Part shown: piece after piece, positions 787 through 7,991 of the stretch
Layout of the letters: each line of letters opens with the position of its first letter
Numbering within the stretch: the stretch's first letter is position 1
Source: Sediminibacterium sp.
GTDB lineage: Bacteria > Bacteroidota > Bacteroidia > Chitinophagales > Chitinophagaceae
NCBI GenBank assembly: GCA_023263235.1
Contig: JALQXE010000172.1
Coordinates: forward strand, 1-7,991
Direction of reading: 5' to 3'
DNA: 7,991 nucleotides
Notes under the pieces: model-generated
Told to the model about the DNA's origin: nothing
Databases searched by the model: none
What the model saw: only the letters and a program-made list of their open reading frames with translations
Program-made: the position numbers and the translations under genes

Positions 787-2763
787 ATGTTGATAGGATT
801 ACAAAATGTAACGTTTGAGTTTGGTGCTAGAGTCATTGTAAGTGAAGCTACATGGCATATTCAACCAGGTGAACGAATTGGGCTCATTGGTTATAATGGT
901 ACCGGTAAATCAACCATATTAAAATTATTAGTAGGTCAGTATACGCCTAGTAAAGGAACAGTTGAAAAGGGAAGAGATACCACCATTGGATATTTACATC
1001 AGGATCTATTAAGTTTTGACACCAATGAAACTATCACCGAAGTAGCGTTAGGTGCATTTGAACGTGTTCGTGAATTGGAGAAACAAATTGAAGCATTGGG
1101 GATAGCCTTGGAAGCTAATCCTGAGGATAATGATATTCTTATTCAATATACAGATGCATTGCATGAATTAGATGTTTTGGACGGTTATAATATTAGCCAT
1201 AAAGCAGAAGAAGTTCTACATGGTCTTGGATTTACCAATAATGATTTAACCAGACCTTATAAAGAGTTTAGTGGAGGTTGGAGAATGCGCGTATTACTTG
1301 CTAAAATGATTTTACAAGCACCCGATGTTTTATTATTGGACGAGCCTACGAACCATTTGGACTTACCAAGTATCGAATGGCTAGAAAAATACCTTCTACA
1401 TTATAAAGGAAGTGTGGTAATTGTAAGTCACGACAAATTCTTCCTGAATAAAATGGTCAACAAGATTGTTGAAGTTTACCAACAACAACTTAATTTTTAC
1501 ACGGGTGATTATGAATATTATGAAGTAGAAAAAGTTCAAAGAATTGAAATCCAACAACGTGCTTTTGAAAACCAACAAGACTATATACGTCAACAAGAAC
1601 GTTTCATAGAAAGATTCAAGGCCAAGGCATCGAAAGCTGCGCAAGCTCAATCCATTCAAAAACGTTTAGACCGGTTAGATGTGATTGAAGATGTTCAATT
1701 AGAAAGACCCAATATAAAAATTAATTTTGCTGTAGATAAAACGCCAGGAAAGGTATTAGTGGATTTAAAAGGGATTCACAAATCCTATCCTACTTTAACC
1801 ATTCTTGATAATGCTTTTGCTGAAATTGAAAGAGGAGATAAAATAGCTTTGATTGGAGCCAACGGTAAAGGAAAAAGTACCCTTTTAAGAATTGTAGCAG
1901 GAATGGAAAGCTTTGAAGGTGAAAGGGTTTGGGGGCATAATGTTGACGAAAGCTTTTATGCACAACATCAATTAGAATCTTTAAATTTAAACAATACCAT
2001 TTTACAAGAGGTTCAAGAATGCGGTACTAAAAAAACCGATTTAGAATTACGTGCCTTATTAGGTTGCTTTTTATTTGGAGGAGATGATGTAGATAAGAAA
2101 ATTAAAATTTTAAGTGGTGGCGAAAAAGCAAGGGTTGCATTAACCAAAACAATTATTAGTAAGGCTAACTTTTTAATGCTGGATGAACCTACCAATCACT
2201 TAGATATGGCTACTGTTGAACTGTTAGCGGAAGCTTTAACAAAATATGACGGTACAATTATTTTGGTAAGTCACGATCGTTATTTTATTTCAAAAACAGC
2301 AAATAAAATATGGGAAATAGAGGATGAAAAAATTATTGAATTCAAAGGGGATTACAATGAATGGGTTGCATGGAAGGAAAGAATGGCAAAGCAAAAAGCG
2401 GCTCATCCTGATGGGCAAAAAACTACGGTCACAAAAACAACCTCTGTAGCAGAAAAAAAAGTAGCACCAGTTGCTGCACCTGAATTAAAGACAACTCCAA
2501 AAGGTCCCATCGACAAAGATTTACAAAAGCAAATTCAAAAATTACAAAAAGCAATGTCTCAATTAGAAAAAAATATTGAAACATTAAATAAGGAAAAAAT
2601 GGAGATAGAAAATCAAATGGCCGATCCTACTATCTATTCAGATGTTGCTAAATTTCAAGCTATTGAAAAAAGTTATCATGATAAGAATGCATTAATCAAT
2701 TCCATGAATAAGGAATATGAAATTGCATTTAATGACCTAGCAGACTTGGAAAGTAAAATGTAA
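787..2763 (+). CDS. ABC-F family ATP-binding protein (Uup/YdiF/EttA-like)
   Basis: This is a cytosolic duplicated ATPase of the ABC-F class. The family has no membrane domain and acts on ribosomes, by analogy with EttA and Uup, to resolve stalled or misassembled translation states. In this 658-residue protein the first ATPase domain has Walker A GYNGTGKST (35-43), signature FSGGWRMR (161-168), Walker B VLLLDE (181-186) followed by PTNHLD, and the H-switch His215. Residues about 240-305 form the charged, Gln/Arg/Lys-rich helical interdomain linker that enters the ribosomal E site in this family. The second domain has Walker A GANGKGKST (357-365), signature LSGGEKAR (442-449), Walker B FLMLDE (462-467) and His496. 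A Lys/Pro/Ala-rich tether (about 535-575) leads to a C-terminal coiled coil (about 576-658), as in Uup-type members. All catalytic residues are intact. It is more likely a housekeeping factor than a resistance protein, and the exact subfamily is not settled. Confidence 0.95.
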   Translation: MLIGLQNVTFEFGARVIVSEATWHIQPGERIGLIGYNGTGKSTILKLLVGQYTPSKGTVEKGRDTTIGYLHQDLLSFDTNETITEVALGAFERVRELEKQIEALGIALEANPEDNDILIQYTDALHELDVLDGYNISHKAEEVLHGLGFTNNDLTRPYKEFSGGWRMRVLLAKMILQAPDVLLLDEPTNHLDLPSIEWLEKYLLHYKGSVVIVSHDKFFLNKMVNKIVEVYQQQLNFYTGDYEYYEVEKVQRIEIQQRAFENQQDYIRQQERFIERFKAKASKAAQAQSIQKRLDRLDVIEDVQLERPNIKINFAVDKTPGKVLVDLKGIHKSYPTLTILDNAFAEIERGDKIALIGANGKGKSTLLRIVAGMESFEGERVWGHNVDESFYAQHQLESLNLNNTILQEVQECGTKKTDLELRALLGCFLFGGDDVDKKIKILSGGEKARVALTKTIISKANFLMLDEPTNHLDMATVELLAEALTKYDGTIILVSHDRYFISKTANKIWEIEDEKIIEFKGDYNEWVAWKERMAKQKAAHPDGQKTTVTKTTSVAEKKVAPVAAPELKTTPKGPIDKDLQKQIQKLQKAMSQLEKNIETLNKEKMEIENQMADPTIYSDVAKFQAIEKSYHDKNALINSMNKEYEIAFNDLADLESKM

Positions 2764-2865: not shown

Positions 2866-5280
2866 TTATTTCAAATACTTGTCCAACCAGCGTCCTTGCT
2901 CATACAATAAATGCAATAAGTTTTCTTTACCTCTATAACTATGGGCTTCATAAGGCAAATAAACAAATCTTGTAGTACCGCCATGTCCTTTAATTGCAGC
3001 ATACAAACGCTCACTATTAATTGGGAATGTACCAGTATTATCATCCATTTCACCATGCGTTAACAAAATGGGTGCTTTAATTTTATCGGCAAAAGCAAAT
3101 GGACTCATCCCTAAATATAATTGTGGTGCTTGCCAAAAAGTACGTTCCTCATTTTGAAAACCAAAAGGCGTTAGGGTTCTGTTATAAGCACCACTACGTG
3201 CAATACCTGTTTTAAATAAGTTGGTATGTGCTAATAAATTAGCAGTCATAAATGCACCATAACTGTGCCCTCCTACTGCCATTCTATTTCTATCTCCTAC
3301 CCCCATTTCCACTAACTTATCAATAGCAGCGGAAGCATTTAAACCTAATTGATTCACAAAATCATCATTAGGTTTTTTATCTGGTGAAGTAGCAACAATT
3401 GGCATTTCGGCATTGTCTAAAATAGCATAGCCTTGAGTTACATAAAATACTGGTGTAGCCCATGAAAGCATGGTAAATTTATGTTGGTTTCCTCTAATTT
3501 GACTTGCATCCGCAGCATTAGTGAACTCTCTAGGATAAGCCCAAATTAATGTTGGTAATGGGCCATCTTTTACTTTATCATAACCTTTTGGTAAATACAA
3601 GTCTCCAGTTAAATCAATACCATCTTTTCTTTTGTATTTAATTTTTTCTTTGGTTACACCATCCATTCCAGCATATGGATTTAAAAATTGAGTAAGTGCA
3701 GTGGCATGTGCTAAAGTGCTTCCTTCTCTTATATAGTAATTAGGCACCTCCTTCTCTGTTTCACGACGTGTGATTACTTTTAAATTGTTTATGTCTAACA
3801 CATCGGCAACATATTCAAAACAATCCTCAGCACATCTCCATATAATTTCTTTAGTTTTCGTTTGCAAATTAAACTTCGCTAAATAAGGTAAATCTCCTTT
3901 AGCTGAAGCGCCTGTGGTGTTATTAAATAAAATGGTTTGTCCGTCCTTTGAAACAGCAAGTACGTCTTCGCCAAAACTATTTTTTTCAGTTACAGGGTTA
4001 CCGGGATTATTATATAAATCGGTACTATTGCCTTCATACAAAGTACTAATTAAATTAGTCTTACTATTATATAAACTTACTTTATACTGTTGTTTAGATC
4101 TTAATTGTTCCGAAACCAATGCAACCTGTTCATTGCCCCAATTGGTTCTACTATATCTATTCTCCGTTTTAAACAATTCTTTTGGATTGCCGTTAAATGG
4201 TGCTTCTAATGCAAAAACTGCATCATGAAAAGGTACTTTCTTTTTAATCAAACCACTGTCCAAAGGCATTGCATATATAATTGTTGCAGGTACATCATTT
4301 CTCCAATCAAATCCACGTGCTATATTCTGCACATTATCATAACCTGAAGGGGTATTTTCTGAAGAAGGAAGCGAAGCTAAGGTATGAACTAAATTACCTT
4401 TATTATCGGTTATCGTAACTGTTGAAGCAAAACCATAAGCGGGAACTAAATATGAAAATGGTTTATTTAAATTACGTGTTAAAAAATATTGTTTATTAGG
4501 AGCTACTGAAATACTTGACAAAATACTTGGCTTACCAATTTTAGTTTCAACACCATTATTGTTTTTTACCAATTGAACGGTTGTATAATATTCGAATAAA
4601 TATTCATCAAAAGGTGATTTGATTAAATCCTGATATGTGACACTTGGGGCAACTTTACCAAGGTTTTCTTGGATAGTTGGCCCTTTAGGCGTTATTGGTT
4701 TTTTAGCCACTTTTGCAGGATCATTCACACTCGTCTTATACATTAGGTTGTTATCATCTAACCATACTAATGTATTACCTAAAACTAAATTTGCAGCTGC
4801 TGTATTAATCTTCTTACAAGTCAAAGAAGGAATATCTATTACATAAACATCTACTCTATTTGACAACACATTAAAAAAGGCAATTTTATGTTCTGCAGGA
4901 TTCCAAACAGGGCTCAATGCAGAAAGTGCGGATGGCATTCCTTTAATCTCCAATGGCTTATCCGTGCCAATTTGTTTTATGACTAATCTATTAATATAAG
5001 TTTGCCTTGTTAAAGAGGAATTTAGTGGATTAATTCTAAGTCCTGCAATCTTCAATTCAGGTTGTCCTAATTCTTCTACAGTGGGATAAGAATTTCGCTC
5101 CATCACCAACATATATTTTGCGGTTGAATTAACGCTAATACTAGGTGTTGGAGGTGCCAATAATAAATCGGCAATAACTTTAGGTGGAACCTGATAACCT
5201 GCATTGTCCTGTGCAATCAAATTTGTGCATACAATAAAAAACAAAGTGGTTAAGAATGATAATTTAAATATTTTCTTCAT
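2866..5280 (-). CDS. Exported S9 family serine peptidase, S9D (glutamyl endopeptidase-like)
   Basis: This is an 804-residue secreted alpha/beta-hydrolase peptidase. A Sec signal peptide (MKKIFK, then a hydrophobic core to about residue 20) is probably cut at LIA|Q near residue 23. Residues about 45-510 form an N-terminal beta-propeller-like region with the S9D-like segments GPTIQENLGK (200-209) and TYQDLIKSPFDEYLFEYY (215-232). The C-terminal catalytic domain (about 545-804) has AYPREF (581-586), the nucleophile Ser673 in GGHSYG (670-675), Asp746 in HGEMDDN (742-748) and His780 in YEAH (777-780), so the Ser-Asp-His triad is complete. The block around Ser673 and the GAYNRTLTPFGFQNE stretch (697-711) closely resemble, from memory, plant chloroplast glutamyl endopeptidase, hence S9D rather than generic prolyl oligopeptidase. 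It probably degrades periplasmic peptides. Its own promoter is unclear: the best -7 box is a one-mismatch TCAATTTG on the minus strand at 5312-5319. It is divergent from pfkA and convergent with the ABC-F gene. Confidence 0.93.
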   Translation of the reverse strand: MKKIFKLSFLTTLFFIVCTNLIAQDNAGYQVPPKVIADLLLAPPTPSISVNSTAKYMLVMERNSYPTVEELGQPELKIAGLRINPLNSSLTRQTYINRLVIKQIGTDKPLEIKGMPSALSALSPVWNPAEHKIAFFNVLSNRVDVYVIDIPSLTCKKINTAAANLVLGNTLVWLDDNNLMYKTSVNDPAKVAKKPITPKGPTIQENLGKVAPSVTYQDLIKSPFDEYLFEYYTTVQLVKNNNGVETKIGKPSILSSISVAPNKQYFLTRNLNKPFSYLVPAYGFASTVTITDNKGNLVHTLASLPSSENTPSGYDNVQNIARGFDWRNDVPATIIYAMPLDSGLIKKKVPFHDAVFALEAPFNGNPKELFKTENRYSRTNWGNEQVALVSEQLRSKQQYKVSLYNSKTNLISTLYEGNSTDLYNNPGNPVTEKNSFGEDVLAVSKDGQTILFNNTTGASAKGDLPYLAKFNLQTKTKEIIWRCAEDCFEYVADVLDINNLKVITRRETEKEVPNYYIREGSTLAHATALTQFLNPYAGMDGVTKEKIKYKRKDGIDLTGDLYLPKGYDKVKDGPLPTLIWAYPREFTNAADASQIRGNQHKFTMLSWATPVFYVTQGYAILDNAEMPIVATSPDKKPNDDFVNQLGLNASAAIDKLVEMGVGDRNRMAVGGHSYGAFMTANLLAHTNLFKTGIARSGAYNRTLTPFGFQNEERTFWQAPQLYLGMSPFAFADKIKAPILLTHGEMDDNTGTFPINSERLYAAIKGHGGTTRFVYLPYEAHSYRGKENLLHLLYEQGRWLDKYLK

Positions 5281-5508: not shown

Positions 5509-6495
5509 ATGTCAGCAAAAAAAGTAACCAAAATTGCAGTATTAACCTCCGGAGGTGATGCCCCAGGAATGAATGCAGCAATTAGAGCAGTAGTAAGAAC
5601 AGGAGTTTATCATGGTTTAGAAGTTTTTGGCGTAACAAGAGGTTATAATGGCATGATTGAGGATGATATTTTTCCTATGGACTCAAGATCGGTTGGAAAT
5701 ATCATACAAAGAGGTGGTACTATTTTAAAAACTGCAAGAAGTAAAGAATTTTTCACACCAGAAGGTCGTCAAATCGCCTACAACAATCTAAAGAAAAGAG
5801 GCATTGATGGTATAGTAGTAATAGGTGGAGACGGAAGTTTTAAAGGAGCTCAAAAATTTAGTAATGAATTTGATATCCCTTGTATTGGATTGCCAGGAAC
5901 CATTGATAAAGATATAGCGGGAAGTGATTTTACGATTGGTTTTGACACTGCTGTTAATACAGCAGTTGAAGCAATTGATAAAATTAGAGATACTGCCGAT
6001 GCTCATGATCGTTTATTTGTGGTAGAAGTGATGGGTCGAGATGCAGGTTATATTGCTTTGCATAGTGGTATTGCAACAGGGGCAGAAAATATATTAATTC
6101 CAGAATCAAAAACCGATATGGAAGCCTTGGTAGGCGCTTTGGCGGAAAAGGAAAAGCGCAAAAAGTTGGTGAATCTAATCATCGTTGCAGAAGGTGACGA
6201 ATTTGGAGGGGGCACACAGGTTGGAGATTTCTTAAAACAAAGATTACCTAATGCAGACATTCGTGTATGTATTTTAGGACATATACAAAGAGGTGGTGCA
6301 CCAAGTTGTTTAGATCGTTTAATTGCTAGCAGAATGGGCTATCATGCTGTTGAATGTTTATTAAATGGTACACACAATGTAATGGTGGGTATTGAAGATA
6401 ACAAAATGAAATACACACCACTTGATAATGCTGTAAAAGCAAAACAAAAAATTTCTGAGGAATGGCTAAAAATTGTAAAAATCTTAGCGAGCTAA
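5509..6495 (+). CDS. pfkA: ATP-dependent 6-phosphofructokinase
   Basis: This cytosolic glycolytic enzyme phosphorylates fructose 6-phosphate to fructose 1,6-bisphosphate. The 328-residue length is typical of bacterial PfkA. Visible motifs are the ATP-site loop GGDAPGMN (15-22), GGDGS (106-110), the catalytic segment PGTIDKD (129-135) with the likely base Asp133, EVMGRDAG (173-180), and the PFK signature GHIQRGG followed by DR (257-270). Gly109 and Gly130 occupy the two positions (E. coli 104 and 124) that are Asp and Lys in PPi-dependent enzymes, so ATP is the expected donor. Basic residues Arg26, Arg30 and Arg60 and the KRKK run (216-219) fall roughly where the E. coli allosteric site lies, so effector control is plausible. 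Lys134 replaces the usual Asn of GTIDND. The ATG at 5509 has no Shine-Dalgarno but follows a good promoter, and pyruvate kinase starts 53 bp after the stop without an evident promoter of its own, suggesting an operon. Confidence 0.97.
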   Translation: MSAKKVTKIAVLTSGGDAPGMNAAIRAVVRTGVYHGLEVFGVTRGYNGMIEDDIFPMDSRSVGNIIQRGGTILKTARSKEFFTPEGRQIAYNNLKKRGIDGIVVIGGDGSFKGAQKFSNEFDIPCIGLPGTIDKDIAGSDFTIGFDTAVNTAVEAIDKIRDTADAHDRLFVVEVMGRDAGYIALHSGIATGAENILIPESKTDMEALVGALAEKEKRKKLVNLIIVAEGDEFGGGTQVGDFLKQRLPNADIRVCILGHIQRGGAPSCLDRLIASRMGYHAVECLLNGTHNVMVGIEDNKMKYTPLDNAVKAKQKISEEWLKIVKILAS

Positions 6496-6548: not shown

Positions 6549-7991
6549 ATGAGTCAACAAAATTTAAAACAAATACATCACAAAACAAAAATCGTAGCAA
6601 CCGTAGGCCCTGCTTGCGAAACCTATGACCAATTAAAAGCATTAGTGATTGCAGGTGTGAATGTATTTCGTTTAAACTTCTCTCATGGAAGCCACGAAGA
6701 CAAGAAAAAAATAATTGATAATATTCGAGGAATTAATAAAGAATTAGGATGCACTGTTGCCATATTAGGTGATTTGCAAGGTCCTAAATTAAGAGTAGGT
6801 GAAATTGAAAATAACCGTTTAGAAGTTAAAGTGGGCGATGTACTTACACTCACTAATGAGAAGTGTGTTGGCACTATGGAAAAAATATATGTATCCTACC
6901 CTAACCTTGCTGGAGATGTAGTAGTAGGCAATACAATTATGATTGACGATGGCAAGATTGAAGTAAAAGTGCAAAGTGTTGAAGCTAATAATGATGTTAA
7001 GGTTGTGGTAAGCTTAGGAGGAATTATCTCATCAAAAAAAGGATTAAACTTACCTGACACCAAAATATCCCTACCTGCATTAACCGAAAAGGATTTAATT
7101 GATGCTGAATTTATAATTAAAGAAGAATTAGACTGGGTAGCATTAAGCTTTGTAAAAAGAGTTGCTGATATTGAAATGTTAAGAGAAATCTTAAATAAAC
7201 ACAAGAGCAAATCTAAAATAGTTGCTAAAATTGAAATGCCTGAGGCTATCGTAAACTTAAGAGACATTATTATTGCAAGTGATGCAATCATGGTAGCACG
7301 TGGTGACTTAGGTGTAGAATTACCAGTAGAGAAAATCCCTTTAATCCAAAAAGAGATCATTAAAAAGTGTTTGCATAGAGCAAAACCAGTGATTGTGGCT
7401 ACACAAATGATGGAGTCAATGATTGATCGCGTAAAACCCAATCGTTCGGAAATCACCGACGTTGCAAACGCAGTTATTGAAGGAGCGGATGCAGTTATGT
7501 TAAGTGGTGAAACAGCTACAGGTCAATTCCCAGTTTTGGTGATTGAAACCATGCGTAAAATTATATCAGAAGTTGAACAATATGGTTATAACTATAACCG
7601 CTCTGAGGATTTAAAACCACAACCACATTCCCCTTCATTTGTAAGTGATGCTTTATGCTATAATGCATGCCGTTTAGCAGAGGATGCGAATGCACAAGGA
7701 TTGGTGGGTATGACACAAAGTGGCTACACTGCGTTTCAATTAAGTAGTTTCCGTCCAAAGTCTCCATTATTTATCTTTACCAAAGAAAAAAGCTTAGTAA
7801 ATCAATTGAGTTTGAGTTGGGGTGTTAAAGCTTTCTATTATGATAAAGAAGAGAGTTTAGATAAAATTGATTGGTCTAATTTATCATTAAATCCAAATGC
7901 TATTGAACTTTTAGAAAAGAATTTAGATAAGATTGATTGGAATAAATTATCTCAAAATCCTAATGCTATCCCAATTCTTGAAAAAAATCTT
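6549..7991 (+). CDS. pyk: Pyruvate kinase, 3' end aberrant: C-domain runs into NPNAI-type repeats; incomplete at window edge
   Basis: Pyruvate kinase transfers phosphate from phosphoenolpyruvate to ADP in the last step of glycolysis. The frame is open from ATG 6549 to the window edge (481 codons, no stop). The barrel domain shows Arg41 and FSHG (44-47), GDLQGPKLRVG (74-84), catalytic Lys227 and metal-ligand Glu229 in AKIEMPE, VARGDLGVE (249-257) and Thr285 in ATQMMES. The B domain is intact at about 85-175. The C domain begins near 355 and reads normally through SWGVKAFYYDKEESLD (423-438). A normal enzyme would then have about 40 more residues with a GD.VV...G-type strand. Here two copies of a 22-residue LDKIDW/NPNAI repeat follow instead. 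The reading frame is unbroken across the change. The ATG has no Shine-Dalgarno, and the 53-bp gap after pfkA shows no TAnnTTTG box. The kinase identity is secure. The tail may be a real fusion or an assembly chimera. Confidence 0.93.
   Translation, partial: MSQQNLKQIHHKTKIVATVGPACETYDQLKALVIAGVNVFRLNFSHGSHEDKKKIIDNIRGINKELGCTVAILGDLQGPKLRVGEIENNRLEVKVGDVLTLTNEKCVGTMEKIYVSYPNLAGDVVVGNTIMIDDGKIEVKVQSVEANNDVKVVVSLGGIISSKKGLNLPDTKISLPALTEKDLIDAEFIIKEELDWVALSFVKRVADIEMLREILNKHKSKSKIVAKIEMPEAIVNLRDIIIASDAIMVARGDLGVELPVEKIPLIQKEIIKKCLHRAKPVIVATQMMESMIDRVKPNRSEITDVANAVIEGADAVMLSGETATGQFPVLVIETMRKIISEVEQYGYNYNRSEDLKPQPHSPSFVSDALCYNACRLAEDANAQGLVGMTQSGYTAFQLSSFRPKSPLFIFTKEKSLVNQLSLSWGVKAFYYDKEESLDKIDWSNLSLNPNAIELLEKNLDKIDWNKLSQNPNAIPILEKNL
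7857..7991 (+). repeat. Tandem 66-bp protein-coding repeat (LDKIDW..LS.NPNAI..LEKN type)
   Basis: There are two full units, 7857-7922 and 7923-7988, plus the first Leu codon of a third. Each encodes 22 residues with fixed LDKIDW, LS, NPNAI and LEKN blocks. The units agree at 17 of 22 residues and about 51 of 66 bases. Six of the 17 conserved residues use different codons in the two units, which indicates an old coding repeat kept at protein level rather than a fresh DNA duplication. I recall this repeat mainly from long repeat proteins of giant DNA viruses and environmental sequences. It probably forms a helical solenoid, which is inference. Function is unknown. Confidence 0.85.

Follow-up and report, generated by a model that had tools for sequence, protein, structure and literature searches.

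A probable chimeric contig end behind an apparent in-frame fusion of pyruvate kinase to viral-type tandem repeats

The last open reading frame of a contig assigned to Sediminibacterium sp. starts as an ordinary pyruvate kinase and turns, without any change of frame, into LDKIDW/NPNAI repeats. The whole contig, 7,991 nucleotides in length, was analyzed and is referred to here as the window. An earlier note on this DNA had drawn attention to the transition, which was borne out by the open reading frame, Pfam, alignment and Tandem Repeats Finder. Two fundamentally different explanations had been offered: either a real fusion that arose by viral insertion or capture, or a chimeric contig end. In the former case, a core glycolytic enzyme would carry an acquired viral repeat arm, and this would be startling. 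The sequence comparisons presented here make it very probable that the stretch 7857-7991 is a chimeric contig end and that the in-frame pyk fusion is an artefact. The apparent artefact is thus most likely not a new enzyme. The features discussed are collected in Table 1.

Table 1 Features of the window and their coordinates.
Feature	Position	Strand	Remarks
ABC-F ATPase gene	787-2763		Bacteroidota-type contig
S9 peptidase gene	2866-5280	-	
pfkA (6-phosphofructokinase)	5509-6495	+	Pfam; conserved upstream neighbour of pyk
pyk (pyruvate kinase), genuine part	6549-7868	+	Residues 1-440 of the normal 483; C domain cut short
Join zone	7857-7868	+	LDKI codons common to the pyk tail (EESLDKI) and the repeat (NLDKIDW)
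Foreign stretch	7869-7991	+	Slightly less than two 66-base units that encode DWSNLSLNPNAIELLEKNLDKIDWNKLSQNPNAIPILEKNL, of the viral 'tryptophan repeat' type; truncated where the contig stops

The contig body and pyruvate kinase up to residue 440

Two proteins encoded in the window closely resemble those of the loci L025-L030, with identities of 95-98% for PfkA and 95-97% for pyruvate kinase. In 24 of 24 loci (L025-L048), two of which hold a partial pfkA, this gene is located 22-147 bases upstream of pyk. The conserved pfkA-pyk order and the normal pyk relatives identify the contig body as typical Bacteroidota sequence. These findings bear on the idea that a pyruvate kinase gene of bacterial origin was taken up by a virus and became fused to a viral repeat gene, in which case the window itself would be viral. 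The viral type of the repeat, described further below, is in line with such a capture. However, the window is otherwise syntenic with Bacteroidota MAGs, not only with respect to the position of pfkA beside pyk but also with respect to the high identities of both gene products, and we regard the capture as exceedingly improbable. The S9 peptidase gene, which separates ABC-F from pfkA in the window, is variably present among relatives: of 24 of them with upstream DNA of up to about 3 kb, six showed the S9 peptidase upstream of pfkA, 13 showed ABC-F instead and five showed neither. Neither Rfam nor tRNA scans found a match in the window.

The complete pyk open reading frame (6549-7991) comprises 481 residues and contains no stop before the end of the contig. 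Its PK barrel (PF00224) is complete (residues 11-330, profile positions 2-326 of 328, E = 1.1e-114). The PK_C domain (PF02887) is incomplete and covers profile positions 1-73 of 114 only (residues 367-439), compared with positions 1-113 in the intact relative P0001. We ascribe this truncation to the join and not to evolution of the gene. An alignment with other pyruvate kinases, proposed as a check in the earlier note, was run with 22 of the 120 relatives listed (8000 were scored). The window protein proved regular up to ...KAFYYDKEESLDKI, i.e., through residue 440, and unrelated afterwards. A change near residues 436-438, as originally suggested, is therefore real, but the actual switch lies at 440/441, since LDKI is common to both sides. 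Accordingly, the number of normal residues lost is about 43 and not about 40.

None of the 120 listed pyk relatives contains the motif NPNA. A normal tail is present in 119 of them, 118 with a length of 483 residues and one with 482, all featuring the (V/I)NTGS motif; the exception, P0049, ends at residue 443. The pyk genes in the nearest genome loci (L025-L049, 25 of 80 fetched) continue without exception via ...DQI...NTGSTP... to the stop codon. Six close genomes yielded one pyk match each, which covered positions 1-483 without internal stop, and a seventh, more distant genome yielded two pyk matches.

The tail and its relatives

From residue 441 (base 7869) onwards the frame encodes the LDKIDW/NPNAI units, and the contig ends 123 bases past the switch. 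Tandem Repeats Finder reported a repeat at 7847-7988 with a period of 66, 2.2 copies and a score of 165. The two units match at 41 of 57 compared bases and use different codons at six of 14 shared residues, which suggests a protein-coding repeat of some age and not a recent duplication of DNA. Evidence from base composition on the origin of the tail is ambiguous: its G+C content of 0.24 falls below the value of each of the 51 non-overlapping windows taken from the upstream genes, and its GC3 is 0.12 versus 0.26, while the normal last 125 bases of the gene in six relatives have G+C contents of 0.256-0.312. When the tail alone was scanned against Pfam, nothing emerged above any cut-off. The AlphaFold model of the complete open reading frame was left unused (mean pLDDT 61.4, residues 416-481 almost all below 50).

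With residues 436-481 as query and proteins of 0.55-1.75 times the length of the open reading frame as targets, 161 repeat proteins were found, and the 120 listed were examined. The best phmmer E-value (1.7e-103) is inflated by the tandem-array nature of the targets. Without gaps, as many as 33 of 41 residues are identical to P0147, P0135 and P0126. Taken together, E-value and ungapped identity put the likeness of the tail to the repeat proteins far beyond chance. NPNA is contained in 109 of the 120 listed proteins, and at least three units are present in 103 (simple motif count). Neither the ARGDLG motif of pyruvate kinase nor, according to precomputed Pfam lists, a PK domain occurs in any of the 120 listed of the 161. 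Four members of the repeat family that were tested matched no Pfam family at E ≤ 0.001. Tryptophan-repeat/NPNAI proteins (P0121-P0240) are numerous in metagenomes; one of them, P0129, has two ubiquitin stretches ahead of its repeat array.

The structure model of P0147 has a mean pLDDT of 78.5, with block means of 94-98 at residues 111-240. A fold search with this protein against predicted viral structures returned 161 matches at E ≤ 10, 24 of them at E ≤ 0.001, with low TM-scores. Among these 24 are proteins of 'Marseillevirus LCMAC101', Solumvirus, Megaviridae samples, Orpheovirus and Bacillus phage G as well as entomopoxvirus proteins of the 'tryptophan repeat gene family'; several matches are unnamed. 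MSV027, which bears the family name, was matched through P0147 with a fold E-value of 1.8e-05, likewise at low TM-scores. Against the PDB, no solved relative of P0147 was found at E ≤ 0.001 by sequence or fold, and the sequence search gave three weak matches to the N-terminal part only (E 0.014-0.024). The best phage match of the tail itself is weak (E 0.03) and concerns a 'tryptophan repeat gene family' protein of Bacillus phage vB_BpuM-BpSp. This large phage carries a cluster of the family, with six neighbouring genes (L115, 43211-49324) annotated as putative tryptophan repeat gene family proteins. A match to an Enterococcus phage, the second for the tail, was taken as chance (E 1). Furthermore, P0135 has a match in a Listeria phage (25% identity), and repeat proteins are matched by two PHROG families whose function is unknown. 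The name is found in the literature for an entomopoxvirus protein (PMC5561611) and for entomopoxvirus and Kaumoebavirus proteins (PMC6669658). A literature search for NPNAI led to titles unrelated to such repeats.

The repeat thus appears to be viral in type and broader in distribution than giant viruses, and we infer a viral origin for the repeat DNA of the tail. The original description as giant-virus-like is in agreement with the fold matches of P0147 but is too narrow, since entomopoxviruses and large phages carry related repeats. A collection of viral contigs was also searched. An 18-mer from the repeat occurred in 24 stretches, each with none or one NPNA-type motif in its richest frame, and these were dismissed as chance. 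Fourteen pattern matches for P0147 in the same collection included no relative, and two degenerate patterns gave no matches. This collection thus supplied no repeat DNA of a real donor with which to gauge the word shared at the join.

Occurrence of the repeat in bacterial genomes and a second case

With P0135 as query, no match was obtained in the six close genomes and the more distant one, and P0124 found none in 395 genomes of the phylum; both searches were run without a positive control. Among 294 genomes of the family, P0135 matched in two, G172 and G128. The match in G172 (L107) was set aside as weak, because it shows 34% identity in a 119-residue frame with one internal stop. In the related genomes searched, the repeat is thus rare or absent.

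The match in MAG G128 (52% identity over 42 residues) is located at the end of contig C104 (10,900 bases). Residues 1-195 of the frame at this end (L108, about 10,600-10,900) match residues 1-186 of the 389-residue integrase L110 with 39% identity. With five fetched relatives, the alignment extends to residues 193-198 in four cases and to residue 169 in one. The frame then turns into the ...NRSKINWFFLMRNPNPGAIRFIEENRDKIIWSELSANPSAIHLL repeat, and a stretch with 64% G+C comes next. A second contig of the same MAG (C239; L116 at its end) starts inside this gene. As far as the switch it shares 96 alignment columns with C104 at 94.8% identity, and the C239 frame matches residues 164-389 of L110 (48%) as well as the Pfam family Phage_integrase (PF00589). 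The C104 fragment alone matched no Pfam family, as is to be expected in the absence of the catalytic part; its identity as an integrase is based on L110 and C239. In the simplest reading of these sequences, C104 and C239 apparently split one integrase gene, and the end of C104 would be a chimera onto the repeat family that arose independently of the window. The overlap is not 100% identical, which would also be in line with strain variation or with an integrase present in two copies, but we do not favour either over a misjoin.

The join, its probable origin and its place among known systems

In the window, the switch follows directly after LDKI. EESLDKI occurs in 39 of the 120 listed pyk relatives, where the next residue is I (32), F (6) or L (1), and LDKI is found in 73 of the 120 listed repeat proteins (of 161). 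Because both sides share LDKI, a finer placement of the breakpoint is impossible. Joining two genes at codons that they share necessarily preserves the frame, and the open frame therefore does not speak for a real gene. In all 25 relatives, the most repeat-like 24-base window at the join site belongs to the top 4% of the gene; the join site is the most repeat-like place of the gene in six, while another window is more alike in 19. Note that the best of several windows near the join site was taken, which flatters this ranking. The likeness of the join site to the repeat is suggestive and may be mildly supportive of a misjoin. Between the join zone and the second unit, the exact match is limited to TTTAGATAA, which ends after 9 bases with a mismatch and is shorter than the usual assembly k, so that one has to postulate either that the true donor shares a longer word or that a chimeric read was involved.

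In principle, illegitimate recombination at the LDKI codons in a bacterium could have swapped the last 43 residues for viral-type tandem repeats, perhaps as a binding arm that replaces part of the C domain. Such a fusion would be in keeping with the frame that is open across the join and with the fact that the repeat occurs joined to other domains, as exemplified by the ubiquitin stretches of P0129. However, it was seen neither in the 120 listed pyk relatives nor in the 120 listed repeat proteins, and pyk is normal at each of the 25 nearest loci. The fusion would also cost the C domain the segment that corresponds to PK_C profile positions 74-114. Moreover, the repeat is rarely or never encountered in those related genomes that were searched, and the contig ends 123 bases past the join. 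We therefore consider a real bacterial fusion very unlikely. Just as improbable is the corresponding scenario for host and donor, a living Bacteroidota strain that received the arm from a protist virus or a large phage. The viral insertion or capture entertained in the earlier note has thus found no support, while the chimeric contig end named there as the alternative fits both the normal tails of the relatives and the shared LDKI at the switch.

The chimeric end may be pictured as follows. An ordinary Bacteroidota (Chitinophagaceae-like) contig with the genes for ABC-F, S9 peptidase, pfkA and pyk would have been linked, close to the 3' end of pyk, with DNA of a gene that consists of tandem repeats of the viral 'tryptophan repeat' type; the probable source is a virus present in the sample. 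The two genes would have been connected in frame where both encode LDKI, either by a wrong path through the assembly graph or by a chimeric read. The contig would then have stopped since a 66-base tandem array is hard to extend. Short-read assembly crosses tandem arrays badly. Presumably, the join was made in the library or during assembly. It is quite possible that it was created physically in the library, by template switching during PCR or amplification, and not by the assembler, a variant that is compatible with a chimeric end. Template switching needs only short homology, and the join features the 9-base run and near matches. In addition, the foreign stretch is shorter than a read of 150 bases, which is a common size. 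Nothing here separates a library origin from an assembler error, though, and the verdict for biology is the same.

The chimeric contig end is favoured by the normal pyk tails, the absence of PK from the listed repeat proteins, the LDKI at the switch, the scarcity of the repeat and the G128 case. On the other side we count the short shared run, the more repeat-like windows elsewhere in the gene in 19 of 25 relatives, the ambiguous G+C content, the empty genome searches run without a positive control, the inexact overlap in G128 and the frame that is open across the join. The practical value of the case is that tandem arrays of the tryptophan-repeat type can create false in-frame fusions at the ends of metagenome contigs, and the integrase in MAG G128 apparently represents a second, better documented example. 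Filtering is advisable for fusions reported no further than roughly one read length from where a contig ends.

According to a review of metagenome assemblers (PMC7299287), de Bruijn graphs can join disparate sequence via shared k-mers, and chimeric contigs have been described. Like chimeric contigs from short-read metagenomes, the window switches sequence type at a shared stretch near its end, and the partner is of repeat type. Relatives show the normal continuation, and shared sequence is found at the switch in the form of the LDKI codons and a short exact DNA run. For the window, the case for a chimera is built on sequence comparison. As a pyruvate kinase of the Sediminibacterium/Chitinophagaceae type (PF00224 plus PF02887; TIGR01064), the window protein is 96-98% identical over residues 1-440 to the closest of the listed relatives, about 30 in number, but lacks residues 441-483, i.e., the end of the C domain, and carries unrelated sequence instead. 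With the viral tryptophan repeat family of Melanoplus sanguinipes and other entomopoxviruses, the tail shares tandem 22-residue units with a DKI(D/N)W and SxNPNAI core, features that were drawn from the proteins found here and are not a published definition. The best environmental members for the tail in turn match named viral proteins by fold (Solumvirus, Orpheovirus, Megaviridae samples, Bacillus phage G). The environmental proteins inspected here have longer arrays together with N-terminal and often C-terminal parts of their own, whereas about two units, attached to a pyruvate kinase, are visible in the tail before the contig ends.
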